The translations under genes were made by a program, and so were the position numbers. A model generated the notes under the pieces. The model saw nothing but the letters and a program-made list of their open reading frames with translations, searched no databases and was not told the DNA's origin. From Chloroflexota bacterium (GTDB taxonomy: Bacteria; Chloroflexota; Anaerolineae; Anaerolineales; Villigracilaceae), in contig JAKAMM010000046.1 in NCBI GenBank assembly GCA_021812905.1, forward strand, positions 1 to 9,665: a DNA stretch of 9,665 nucleotides. Reading direction: 5' to 3'. This document shows positions 189 to 9,665 of the stretch, in pieces; position 1 is the stretch's first letter; each line of letters opens with the position of its first letter.

Positions 189-617
189 TCACAATAAATC
201 CACCAAAGCCCTTAAACCGAGAGTATAAGATTGCCAGCCAAATCCGCTAATCTTGCCTTTGCACACCGCCGAGATCAGTGATTTATATCGAAACTCTTCG
301 CGCGCGTATACATTCGACAGATGCACTTCGACGACAGGAATTTGAATCGCGCTGATTGCATCGCGCAACGCCACCGACGTGTGTGTATATCCGCCTGGAT
401 TGAACACCACGCCGTTTGCCCACGTGCGCGCATCCTGCAAAGCGTCGATCAATGCACCTTCGTGATTCGATTGCAAGCATTTAATTTCCGCACCCAATTC
501 TTTTCCAAGCTCGATCAATTTCGCATTGATGTCATCAAGCATCATCGAACCATAAATTTCCGGTTCGCGCGTGCCAAGCAAATTCAAATTGGGGCCATGC
601 AAGATCAGTATTTTCAT
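189..617 (-). CDS. aroQ: Type II 3-dehydroquinate dehydratase
   Basis: This enzyme removes water from 3-dehydroquinate to give 3-dehydroshikimate, the third shikimate-pathway step, in the cytoplasm. The protein is 142 residues, normal for the dodecameric type II family. Diagnostic stretches are [16 protein letters not shown] near the N-terminus (R17 and Y22 match the active-site Arg and catalytic Tyr), [10 protein letters not shown] at 49-58, [16 protein letters not shown] at 73-88 (N73 and H79), VEVHLSN at 96-102 (H99), and EEFRYKS with R110. The frame stays open upstream to 815, but the true start is the ATG at 617-615: the family begins at [15 protein letters not shown] and a GGAGG lies just upstream. 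The start overlaps, as ATGA, the stop of a decayed aroB remnant. It is the last aro gene of the operon, and no key residue is missing. Confidence 0.96.
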
Positions 618-780
618 TTGTCCTCCAACGCCATCTCCAAATCTTCCATGTCCACCAATTCGATTCGCCTGATCTATGCAGACAATGCAAATCACACGAT
701 GCCGTTTAATTTTTTCCCTGTCCACTCGCATTTTGTGGACGAGTCTCTCGTATGGCAATTCTCTAGGATGCCGATGGACA
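614..780 (-). pseudogene. Decayed C-terminal remnant of a 3-dehydroquinate synthase
   Basis: This stretch between degV and aroQ is not plain spacer. In one frame (767-711) it reads [19 protein letters not shown]. The C-terminus of AroKB in this window reads PKELPREEIIHVMRMDKKK (residues 465-483), 10 of 19 identical with most other changes conservative. At an A6 run (710-715) the match moves to another frame, which continues through FALSA and ends [16 protein letters not shown] (664-617), against VELVDVTDLGKTLDG at the AroKB end. That second frame has stops at 694-692 (TGA) and 676-674 (TAG). The final TGA (616-614) lands where an AroB stop should fall and overlaps the aroQ ATG. With a frameshift, two stops and no N-terminal part, it cannot encode a working enzyme. 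Its divergence from the intact copy means an old duplication or a different source for one copy. Confidence 0.85.
622..626 (-). promoter_or_regulatory. Ribosome binding site fixing the aroQ start
   Basis: GGAGG on the minus strand lies four bases before the ATG at 617-615. It selects this start over the in-frame upstream codons that extend to 815. It sits inside the aroB remnant, which is expected if the lost gene was once translationally coupled to aroQ. Confidence 0.8.
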
Positions 781-799
781 GACTCGCCCACAAAAATGA

Positions 800-1654: not shown

Positions 1655-1714
1655 TTTTTCTCCTTGGCATAAGTTTAATTGTATAACCCCCCAACTTCCA
1701 TTTGGGTTTCACAA

Positions 1715-3256
1715 TCATCCATCCAAGGTTTTCCCCAAATCTGTCACATCCACCAACTCCACCTTTCCAATCTTAACCGGCAAAGCAAAACGGATGGCCT
1801 TCGCATTTTTCTTTTTATCCATTCTCATCACGTGGATGATTTCTTCACGCGGCAATTCTTTGGGGATATGGATGGGTAGTCCCAACTCCGATAATGACTC
1901 AGCCACCGCTTCTGACAAGCCTTTGCCTGCCACCATTAAACGTTCGGCCAACTTCGCCTCGGCCACTATCCCAATCGCCACGGCCTCGCCGTGCCGCAAT
2001 TTGAACTGGCTGACAAGTTCCACTGCATGCCCAACCGTGTGGCCCAGATTCAACGCTGCGCGGAATCCTTTTTCATATGGGTCATCCTCGATGATCTTTA
2101 TCTTGACCGCCATCGCGCGTTTGACGATTTCTTCGAGGTTATCTTTTACCCAACCCAATCCTTGCGCGCATAAATTGAATAACTCAGGGTCAGAGATGAT
2201 TCCATGCTTGACAACTTCCGCCATGCCAGAAATCAATTCCACTTCCGGCAAGGTCTTAAGCAGTTGCGGATCAGCCAGGACCAGTTTCGGCGGATAAAAC
2301 GAGCCGACGAGATTCTTGCCCTCAGGCAGATCAAATCCGGTCTTACCACCAAGAGATGCATCCACCATTGAAAGCAAAGTAGTTGGCACGCCAATCCATT
2401 GGATGCCGCGCATAAACGTGGACGCGGCAAATCCGGTCATGTCACCGATTACGCCGCCGCCCAAAGCAATGACCGTGCTTTTGCGGTCCAGGCCTGCTTC
2501 GAGAAAACCATGCCAAAGTCTGCTCACGGTTTCCAAATTTTTATGCGCCTCGCCGGCAGGAACGACTGACACTTTTGGTTCGAAATCCGACGAACGCAAA
2601 ACAGCCACCACTTTTTCAGCATGGAACTTGGCCACGTTTTCGTCGGTTACGATGATCGGGTTTTGCAATCCACGCAACTTAAGAATTTCGCCAAGTCGCT
2701 CGATACCACCATTTTGCACCATCGCATCGTATTCCCCCATCGCGGAGAGGTGATGTCTACCTAAAACAACCTGCGCTTGATGGGTATTTTGCTCGGCAGA
2801 TTTCCCGTCCACGTGAACAATCAGCGGGAAAGAACGATAATGCCCGCCACGTTTTACAAGCAACGATGTGAGTTTTTCACGCAAGTCGCCTGCCAGCAAA
2901 GGACGTTTTTCGTGATCGCTTTGCAAACGTTCAAGCAATGTGGATAGTTCCGCCATCAACAAAATAACCTTGCCATTGCTCTCTGCGAAAGTACGGTTCT
3001 CATCTCGCAAGAGCGCACCGCCGCCAAGAGCAATCACACTTTCTTTTTTGCTGACAATATTTTTCAGAACAACCGATTCAAGGTCACGAAAAGTCGGCTC
3101 ACCTTGTTCCTCCATAATTTGTGGAATGGGCGTACCCGCGTTTGTTTCGATAACGTGGTCGAGGTCAATGAAAGGCAGTTTTAGATTATGGGCAAGTTGT
3201 CTGCCAACTGTGGATTTACCCGTCCCAGGAGGACCGTAGAGGAAGATGTGAGTCAT
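1715..3256 (-). CDS. aroKB: Bifunctional shikimate kinase / 3-dehydroquinate synthase
   Basis: This 513-residue fusion carries out pathway steps five and two. Residues 1 to about 165 are the kinase: Walker A GPPGTGKST (8-16), D31 and D33 of FIDLDHVIE, R57 in the FRDLE shikimate site, the GGG at 78-80, and the lid arginine R118 in EKRPLL. Residues from about 172 are 3-dehydroquinate synthase, an NAD- and metal-dependent enzyme converting DAHP to dehydroquinate: GGGVIGDMTGFAAS (267-280), PTTLLSMVDASLGGKTGFD (291-309), and likely zinc ligands E347 (GMAEVVKHG), H406 (NLGHTVGHAVE) and H422 (RHGEAVAIG). Both halves look complete. The ATG at 3256 follows GGAAAG with six bases of spacing. Thermotoga and many Chloroflexota have the same fusion. 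A palindromic element fills the gap upstream, and a decayed second AroB end lies beyond degV. Confidence 0.95.
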   Translation of the reverse strand: MTHIFLYGPPGTGKSTVGRQLAHNLKLPFIDLDHVIETNAGTPIPQIMEEQGEPTFRDLESVVLKNIVSKKESVIALGGGALLRDENRTFAESNGKVILLMAELSTLLERLQSDHEKRPLLAGDLREKLTSLLVKRGGHYRSFPLIVHVDGKSAEQNTHQAQVVLGRHHLSAMGEYDAMVQNGGIERLGEILKLRGLQNPIIVTDENVAKFHAEKVVAVLRSSDFEPKVSVVPAGEAHKNLETVSRLWHGFLEAGLDRKSTVIALGGGVIGDMTGFAASTFMRGIQWIGVPTTLLSMVDASLGGKTGFDLPEGKNLVGSFYPPKLVLADPQLLKTLPEVELISGMAEVVKHGIISDPELFNLCAQGLGWVKDNLEEIVKRAMAVKIKIIEDDPYEKGFRAALNLGHTVGHAVELVSQFKLRHGEAVAIGIVAEAKLAERLMVAGKGLSEAVAESLSELGLPIHIPKELPREEIIHVMRMDKKKNAKAIRFALPVKIGKVELVDVTDLGKTLDG

Positions 3257-3267
3257 AAAATTCTTTC

Positions 3268-3374
3268 CATGTCATTGCGAGGGCGGCGTTCTCCCGAAGG
3301 GGCCCGAAGCATCTCCTCGCCAAACTGGGGATTGCTTCGTCGCAAAGAACAAGAACGCTCCTCGCAATGACATG
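3268..3374. repeat. Palindromic (MITE-like) element between aroC and aroKB
   Basis: A 15-base arm, catgtcattgcgagg at 3268-3282, is repeated as a perfect inverted copy at 3360-3374. The interior contains further partly complementary stretches (CTTCG and GCGAGG-like pieces). The element fills nearly the whole junction: one arm starts one base past the aroC stop codon, and the other supplies the first G of the aroKB Shine-Dalgarno GGAAAG. Arms starting TGTCATTGCGAGG are typical of dispersed intergenic repeats in many draft genomes. No transposase and no clear target duplication are visible. As RNA it would form a long hairpin within the operon transcript. Confidence 0.8.
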
Positions 3375-6698: not shown

Positions 6699-6719
6699 GA
6701 TCTCGTTATATGTACTCCG

Positions 6720-6845
6720 TTGGTCGAGTAATGAGCGTTCTTTGCAAGCGTATCGGGACCAATATGTAACATGAAAACAAAATATTATTTGAAACGTGGT
6801 GGTCTCGATACGATACTCGCTATTGCTCGTATCTACTCGACCACC
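6720..6845. repeat. Two-hairpin repeat element, copy A, between tyrA and aroA
   Basis: A left hairpin (6720-6762) pairs ttggt with accaa around a loop containing cgagta and tatcg. A right hairpin (6798-6845) pairs ggtggt with accacc and gatacga (6807-6813) with tcgtatc (6827-6833). The left unit looks like an inverted relative of the right one. The same layout, with ccgttggtYgagtaa at one end and tggtggtNtcgatacg to tactcRaccacc at the other, recurs at 8783-8905. It fills most of the 158-base gap, and no coding sequence is seen there. Confidence 0.75.
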
Positions 6846-6856
6846 AAATTACCCAT

Positions 6857-7710: not shown

Positions 7711-8751
7711 CTAGCCCTCTCCCACAGGGAGAGGGGATACGAGACGACGATCCACCGCTTCAGCCACCGCCCGAACCTGCTTCACCAGTTTGGCAAAAGC
7801 CTCGGGCGTGAGCGATTGCTTGCCATCAGAGATGGCGTTGGCAGGATCGTTGTGCACTTCGACGATGACGCCATCGGCGCCTGCCGCGATGCCTGCCTTT
7901 GCAATTGCGGAGACGTAACCCGAATCGCCAGTGGAATGGGAAGGATCAATGATGATGGGCAGATGCGTGAGTTTTTTTAGAACCGGAATGGCATTGATGT
8001 CGGTCGTATTGCGCGTGGCAGTTTCAAAGGTGCGGATGCCGCGCTCGCACAGCATGACGCGCGTATTGCCGCCGCTGATGATGTATTCGCTGGCCATGAG
8101 CATTTCTTCGATGGTGGCGGACATACCGCGCTTGAAAAGGACGGGCGTGCGGGTTTCGCCAATGGCGCTCAGGAGATTGAAGTTTTGCATGTTGCGCGCG
8201 CCAAGTTGGAAAACGTCCACATATTTTTCCATCATTTCGATTTGGGAAACGGCCATCACTTCGACGACAATGGGCAAGCCCGTTTTCTTGCGGGCTTCGA
8301 CGAGATATTCGAGTCCTTCTTCGCCGAGACCTTGAAAGGCATACGGTGATGTGCGCGGCTTGAAGACGCCGCCGCGCAAAGCGTTCGCGCCTGCTTCTTT
8401 TACCGCCTGCGCGATCTCAAGGATCTGCGAACGGGACTCAACCGAGCATGGGCCTGCAATGATCGGGATTTCTGTGCCGCCGACGGATAAGCCATCAAGT
8501 TGAAAAACGGAATCATGTTCGTGAAATTGGCGTGAGGCGAGTTTGTACGGCTGCGAAATGCGTTGAACGGATAACACGCCGGGCAGGGCTTCGAAGATTT
8601 CTTTTGCAACAGTATGTCCGTCACCAACCGCGCCGATGATGGTCTGTTCGACGCCTTCGATAATATGCGAGGAGAGATGTTGTTTTTCGATTGCGGCGAT
8701 TACGTTTTGAACTTGTTCTTTGGGTGCACCTGGGTGCATGATGATCATCAT
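7711..8751 (-). CDS. aroF: DAHP synthase, type I-beta, with N-terminal regulatory domain (copy 2)
   Basis: It condenses PEP with erythrose 4-phosphate to DAHP, the entry step. Residues 1 to about 75 form the ferredoxin-like/ACT-like domain seen in the Thermotoga enzyme, where it mediates feedback by tyrosine. The barrel follows: AGPCSVES (99-106), [18 protein letters not shown] (126-143), [13 protein letters not shown] (182-194), [10 protein letters not shown] (207-216), [17 protein letters not shown] (235-251), IDPSHSTG (268-275), [13 protein letters not shown] (298-310). C102, H272, E298 and D309 match the known metal ligands. The ATG at 8751 gives the expected N-terminus, with AAGGA about eleven bases upstream. 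The last residues, SPLPVGEG, are encoded by a palindromic repeat and are not part of the usual family end. A sister copy lies just upstream. Confidence 0.95.
7715..7735. repeat. Perfect hairpin repeat at the DAHP synthase C-terminus
   Basis: A nine-base perfect stem, ccctctccc (7715-7723) and gggagaggg (7727-7735), closes a three-base loop. It forms the last codons of the complete DAHP synthase (about P-L-P-V-G-E-G), and the TAG stop follows at 7713-7711. The form is that of a very common dispersed palindrome that adds a SPLPxGEG string wherever it is translated. There is no T-run, so it is not a good terminator. Confidence 0.8.
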
Positions 8752-8782
8752 GGTGGTTTGTTTCCTTTTTTATATATTCACC

Positions 8783-8905
8783 GTTGGTTGAGTAAGCGGT
8801 GTTATTCCGCCGTATCGAAGCCAACAGATTAATGGAGAGCTCTTCATTCACTGGTGGTATCGATACGTTCTTCGCCGCAAAGCGGCTCAGAACTACTCAA
8901 CCACC
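8783..8905. repeat. Two-hairpin repeat element, copy B, between the two DAHP synthases
   Basis: The left hairpin (8783-8825) pairs gttgg with ccaac. The right hairpin (8853-8905) pairs ggtggt with accacc and carries an inner stem gccgc/gcggc. The general plan and both ends match copy A at 6720-6845, with similar total length (123 and 126 bases). The interiors differ, as expected for related elements whose stems drifted together. It fills most of the 161-base gap between the two genes. Confidence 0.75.
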
Positions 8906-8912
8906 GAGTTTT

Positions 8913-9665
8913 CTACGCCCAACCCTGCTTCAGCGGAAGATATTCGCCTTGAACAGTCGCGAGTCTCCTGCCCATGATTTGGGCGATCTGTCCAACCTGC
9001 TTGACCATCTCGGCGAACTTCTCAGGCTTGAGAGATTGCTTGCCATCCGAAACAGCGTGCGAGGGGTCGGGGTGAACCTCAACGATGAGTCCATCTGCAC
9101 CTGCGGCAATTGCGGCGCGCGCAACCGCGGCGACGAAGTCGGCATGTCCTGTGGAATGAGACGGGTCAAGGATGACGGGCAAATGAGTCAGGTTTTTCAA
9201 AACGGGAATGGCGTTGATATCCGTTGTGTTGCGCGTGGCTGTTTCAAAGGTGCGGATGCCACGTTCGCAAAGCATGACACGATTGTTTCCCCCAGCCAAA
9301 ATATATTCGGCGGACATGAGCAGTTCTTCAATCGTGGCGGAGAGTCCGCGCTTGAGCAAGACGCTGGTACGCGTCTCACCAATGGCGCGCAGCAGGTTGA
9401 AGTTCTGCATGTTGCGCGCGCCGATCTGCAGCACGTCCACGTACTTGACCATCAAATCCACCTGCACCTGCGACATGATCTCGGCCACGATGGGCAGTCC
9501 CGTTTTCTCGCGCGCTTCAGCGAGATATTCGAGACCTTTCTCGCCAAGTCCCTGGAATGAATACGGGGACGTGCGCGGCTTGAAGACTCCACCGCGCAAT
9601 GCGGACGCTCCCGCCTCTTTCACCGCCTGGGCCGTCTCCACGATCTGTGAGCGACTCTCCACTGA
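8913..9665 (-). CDS. aroF: DAHP synthase, type I-beta, copy 1 (cut by right edge)
   Basis: The last 250 residues of a second DAHP synthase are visible; the first third lies beyond the right edge. The reading frame runs off the window at the S of the expected GPCSVES motif, so the first metal-ligand cysteine and any regulatory domain are unseen. A GTG at 9662 is an internal valine, not a start. Visible motifs are [66 protein letters not shown] and [13 protein letters not shown], including the His, Glu and Asp metal ligands. By hand count it is about three quarters identical to the adjacent copy over the shared part, so it is a tandem paralog. It ends [14 protein letters not shown], without the repeat-encoded tail of its neighbour. 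The two may differ in feedback control. Confidence 0.94.

Follow-up and report, generated by a model that had tools for sequence, protein, structure and literature searches.

In the window, as we call the whole analysed stretch of 9,665 nucleotides, the 182-nt spacer between degV and aroQ holds what remains of the 3' end of a second aroB gene, now decayed. This remnant occupies positions 614–784 of the minus strand (about 55 codons) and possibly extends to 799. Two aro lineages seem to meet after the degV stop, with aroKB and degV belonging to one and the aroB tail and aroQ to the other. We consider it probable, at roughly three chances in four, that the spacer is the scar of a splice that joined two versions, of lineages X and Y, of an aro operon of Anaerolineales type.

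The window holds a chorismate-pathway operon on the minus strand, of Anaerolineales type judging by its relatives. Pfam was run on three genes and identified an intact aroKB fusion (1715–3256; shikimate kinase plus 3-dehydroquinate synthase, with an AroB that we assign to lineage X), degV (800–1654, stop at 800–802; DegV family) and aroQ (189–617, ATG at 617–615; type II dehydroquinase). The other genes were named from the sequence and are presumably two DAHP synthases, a tyrA-like gene, aroA, aroE and aroC. We take 7711–8751 and 8913–9662 to be the tandem DAHP synthase-like genes, which resemble each other. A leader of about 57 nt (1655–1711, minus strand) stands before degV, and similar leaders occur in G344 and G409, where the DNA read around degV contains no aro gene. 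Because it has its own leader, degV can move as a unit. The leader contains the recurring pattern GGGTT..TA..AA...CCAAGGAGAAA, which is palindromic in G344 (GGTTGTAAATTACAACC) and possibly represents a candidate operator. Repeats are found elsewhere between genes. The gap between aroC and aroKB (3268–3374) carries a palindromic repeat, CATGTCATTGCGAGG...CCTCGCAATGACATG, and a similar one lies between aroKB and aroQ at loci L003, L004 and, in part, L009. A further intergenic inverted repeat lies at 6712–6852, and the stretch at about 8780–8906 resembles it by eye.

The aroB remnant and its decay

Along its length, the spacer can be aligned with the terminal portion of aroB. We searched with a DNA profile of aroB tails built from 37 relatives, the window excluded; these loci, also used for the codon counts below, had at least 60% AroKB identity and were freed of duplicates (37, or 38 with the window's own). 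Positions 801–623 matched profile positions 59–237 of 240 with 62.0 bits (E = 1.8e-19). The same profile gave 201.5 bits on the intact aroB tail of the window, 4.1 bits at the next best place in the window and at best 11.3 bits in 200 shuffled windows. In a pairwise DNA comparison with the window's own aroB tail (+1/−1), the spacer scored 34, against 17 for the best of 2000 dinucleotide shuffles. Under a stricter scheme (+2/−3) only the last ~42 nt aligned, with a score equalled by 16 of the 2000 shuffles, and this is the sole point in favour of a chance similarity or of an unrelated conserved spacer. Given the E-value against a profile built without the window, we regard that explanation as barely conceivable. 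The homology is significant and colinear with the end of aroB. At the codon level it starts at about 784; the 15 nt from there to the degV stop (the junction zone, 785–799, minus strand) are ambiguous and possibly derived from aroB. A previous sequence-only reading of the window had recognised a relative of the AroKB C-terminus at 614–780, which is correct within a few bases, and had expected a match to the C-termini of 3-dehydroquinate synthases, which is present.

The remnant no longer encodes a continuous tail. Its frame is broken twice, near 765 and at 716 beside an A6 run (715–710), and there are in-frame stops at 694–692 and 676–674, in agreement with the earlier description of two frames joined near an A6 run with two in-frame stops. 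Third codon positions account for 40% of its differences, whereas they account for 51–66% in each of the 38 working tails when compared with the others. With a disrupted frame and relaxed constraint on codon positions, the remnant is a pseudogene fragment of aroB. Its final TGA (616–614) still overlaps the aroQ ATG (617–615) as ATGA, so that the coupled-gene-like overlap noticed from the sequence is confirmed.

Lineages of the remnant and of the intact AroB

When read through, the remnant was most similar to P0041 (36 of 56 residues), followed by P0105, P0099, P0091 and L101. The window's own intact AroB shared 25 of 53 residues with it and ranked only 43rd of 158 matches. At the sites where the own AroB and P0041 differ, the remnant carries the residue of P0041 in 11 cases and that of the own copy in one, a count biased toward P0041 because P0041 was picked as the best match. 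Among 41 tails compared at the DNA level, L101 matched the remnant best (score 45, against 34 for the own tail). The remnant also lacks the DLGK/DLGA end that is common to the window, P0036, P0001, P0002 and P0012.

We then placed the remnant, which offers the trees just about 55 decayed codons and forms a long branch, on each of the 93 branches of a fixed backbone tree with 48 AroB domains. The best branches were those of P0041, of P0041 plus P0105, and of P0105. At the 0.05 level, twelve of the 93 placements survived, and none of these lay beside the own copy: all fell in the parts of the tree around P0041/P0105/P0099/P0066, L101/P0091/P0058 or P0062. In contrast, the own AroB, P0036, their stem and the wider stem of X were rejected (deltaL 17.8–20.5, p-AU 0.0004–0.011). 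A quick free tree of 53 rows likewise joined the remnant to P0041 and P0105 (SH-aLRT 99). In the test on these 53 rows, however, a tree holding the remnant together with the own AroB and P0036 was not rejected (p-AU 0.53) and even scored 2.1 log units above the free tree. We give more weight to the fixed-backbone test because only the place of the remnant varies in it, and the conflict with the value of 0.53 stands. That the remnant and the intact AroB come from different lineages appears well supported, but not by every test. The tree proposed earlier for telling sisters from separate lineages has given a divided answer: the fixed tree separates the two (p-AU at most 0.011) and the freer test does not.

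Origin of the spacer and gene order in relatives

The following scenario explains these results best. In version Y of the operon, aroKB would have overlapped aroQ by ATGA; in version X, aroKB would have been followed by degV with its own leader. The two versions would have been joined by what we infer to be homology-facilitated illegitimate recombination (HFIR), with the homologous side probably in the aro genes and the other side non-homologous. The latter would have fused the 3' end of degV to a Y-type aroB, the type to which P0041, P0105 and P0099 belong, roughly 55 codons short of its end; we place this joint 0–15 nt after the degV stop. The truncated tail could no longer have yielded a useful protein and would have decayed, while its last bases, with the GGAGG and the ATG, would have remained in use for starting the translation of aroQ. 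An independent sign of recombination at the aroKB locus is seen in P0036. In bins of 50 residues along 1715–3256, its AroB half is 84–100% identical to that of the window and its AroK half 52–60%, which suggests a domain swap inside the fusion. The DegV protein P0243 is 96% identical to that of the window, and P0036 and P0243 probably lie on one contig, judging by the equal size (33042) of their longest contig. The AroQ proteins P0121–P0124 share 97–99% identity with that of the window.

Different AroB lineages favour such a replacement over a tandem duplication, in which the end of the window's own aroB would have been copied when degV was inserted and the copy would have decayed later. The remnant is indeed of the same gene, in the same direction and directly behind it, is colinear with the own aroB tail in the alignment, and can be grouped with it in the free tree test (p-AU 0.53). 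We nevertheless judge a duplication unlikely, given the 43rd rank of the own aroB among the 158 matches, the rejection of the own AroB and its stems as places in the fixed tree, and the missing DLGK/DLGA end. Another path would take two steps: degV was inserted near the end of a Y-type aroB, and an X-type aroKB was then imported upstream by homologous recombination, restoring aroB. This order of events is consistent with the sequence data, and degV, movable with its leader, could have arrived in this way, but it needs an additional event and an intermediate in which aroB was disrupted, which makes it an improbable course. An assembly chimera that joined the contigs of two strains at the end of degV deserves mention because the source may be a metagenome. 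It should have left a working aroB tail, yet we found stops, frame breaks and relaxed codon positions, and an identical DegV protein was counted on five contigs; such an artefact is highly improbable.

If the spacer is a splice scar, either side may have been the incoming one. We have a bare preference for the entry of aroKB-degV into a Y-type operon, since a single event would then account for degV and the fossil alike; the mirror event, the arrival of a Y-type aroB tail and aroQ downstream of a resident aroKB-degV, is equally compatible with the data. We compared the other aro genes of the window with those of 23 genomes. The tree of tyrA, aroA, aroE and aroC (24 rows) placed the window with G360, G003 and G044 (89/99), and in the AroQ tree (23 rows) it grouped, at weak support (58/79), with G124 and the G381 clade. 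In the AroB tree (35 rows) the X-type AroB fell in a group of 16 rows (97/93) without inner resolution, which also contains G003/G044, G124 and the Y-type proteins; two clade tests on this tree, with poorly chosen groupings, were both rejected. None of the upstream-gene, AroB and AroQ trees decides the direction of the replacement. Of the earlier proposal that the present aroKB and degV came in by a rearrangement or homologous replacement, the fossil and the replacement are supported, and its direction is slightly the likelier of the two.

The order of the genes in relatives agrees with a version in which aroKB runs directly into aroQ. Our survey covered one family, with 152 genomes searched and 109 showing an aroQ match; 93 of these also had a listed aroKB and 16 had no listed aroKB row. 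We compared 90 of the 93 by script, read the other three (G295, G371, G379) from the match lists, and excluded two partial aroQ rows (G338:C313, G399:C294). The two genes were on one contig and strand in 87 of the 93 genomes and on different contigs in six (G432, G240 and G044 among the 90, plus G295, G371 and G379). With gaps measured between match ends rather than from stop codon to start codon, aroKB lay directly before aroQ in 84 of the 87, the matches being at most 228 nt apart; in 14 of these 84 pairs they were at most 5 nt apart or overlapped. The ATGA overlap of the remnant was also found between aroKB and aroQ in L007. Together with the 84 genomes, this bears out the proposal that an ancestral aroKB ran straight into aroQ. 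In G044 (L162) aroQ does not follow aroKB, and the only aroQ match of the genome, 60% identical, is on another contig.

The remaining three of the 87 genomes (G381, G248 and G252) have degV between aroKB and aroQ. The aroB-tail profile detected no remnant in their 130-nt degV-aroQ spacers; at these loci it found the intact tails and hits of 6.9 bits elsewhere. Since these genomes have degV without a detected remnant, degV can also arrive by another path. No second aroB tail was found in up to 400 nt downstream of each of 37 other aroKB genes, where the lone weak match (8.0 bits, L118) was on the opposite strand, nor in eight further spacers, each of which gave one hit, on the intact tail. Viral contigs yielded just four relatives of AroB, at 30–36% identity.

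To our knowledge, leftover pieces of displaced gene versions are rare elsewhere, and the replacement of housekeeping genes inside operons has mostly been inferred from tree conflict. A literature search found no work joining three of aroB, aroQ, DegV and Chloroflexi. HFIR, as described in PMC3240628, combines homologous joining at one end with illegitimate joining at the other, and is known there from laboratory conjugation and, by citation, from natural competence. The window would resemble those junctions in having one side joined by homology and the other without, the difference being that here we deduce the event from an old scar, and in a biosynthetic operon. According to PMC5361080, displaced modules at T6SS/Rhs loci are followed by orphan 3' ends and immunity genes, for which HFIR has been proposed. 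There, as would be the case here, a new module enters upstream and displaces the old 3' end to a downstream position, where it persists; the leftovers of those loci include conserved immunity genes, whereas here the leftover is a defunct fragment of a gene for a housekeeping enzyme. By this analogy, the case of the window looks to be of the same kind as the T6SS/Rhs orphan ends, in a biosynthetic operon. Operon genes can also be displaced in situ, as in repABC (PMC2783167); what this shares with our scenario is that a distant homologue takes over the position of a gene within its operon, but in the window a physical piece of the second version is still present. Because this piece is in place, the joint, the flanking lineages and the decay can be read directly. 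The window is a readable scar and not a new kind of system. It would show one way in which an ATGA-coupled pair is split by another gene with the start signals of the downstream gene kept.

The spacer hairpin and the aroQ start region

The spacer can fold into a hairpin at 731–795 (minus strand), with arms at 780–795 and 731–746 and 16 pairs, directly behind the degV stop and partly made of the aroB fossil. The stretch 720–802, picked post hoc, folds at −34.5 kcal/mol, compared with −18.2 for shuffled sequences (z = −5.2, equalled by 0 of 200); the whole spacer gives z = −2.5, a value reached by 3 of 200 shuffles. An intrinsic terminator of degV was considered and rejected: the stem is present, but no T run lies behind it. 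The pattern scan listed no terminator in the degV-aroQ spacer, and over 560–1760 its promoter and terminator counts were near the shuffle mean (2 found versus 1.3 expected for each kind). No Rfam family reached its gathering score in the window, and the hairpin was not listed by the repeat finder.

The GGAGG at 626–622, four bases ahead of the aroQ ATG, lies within the remnant. One may speculate that the fossil has been reused as an intercistronic control element, in which the hairpin and the aroQ ribosome-binding region would set the expression of degV and aroQ apart; we find this rather doubtful. The degV-aroQ spacer of the G381 clade, which has no homology to aroB, also has a strong hairpin (z = −4.3 in G248), and if the reuse were true that hairpin would be convergent. 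By eye, the left arm of the window's hairpin looks rewritten to match the right arm, in the manner of a template-switch mutation.
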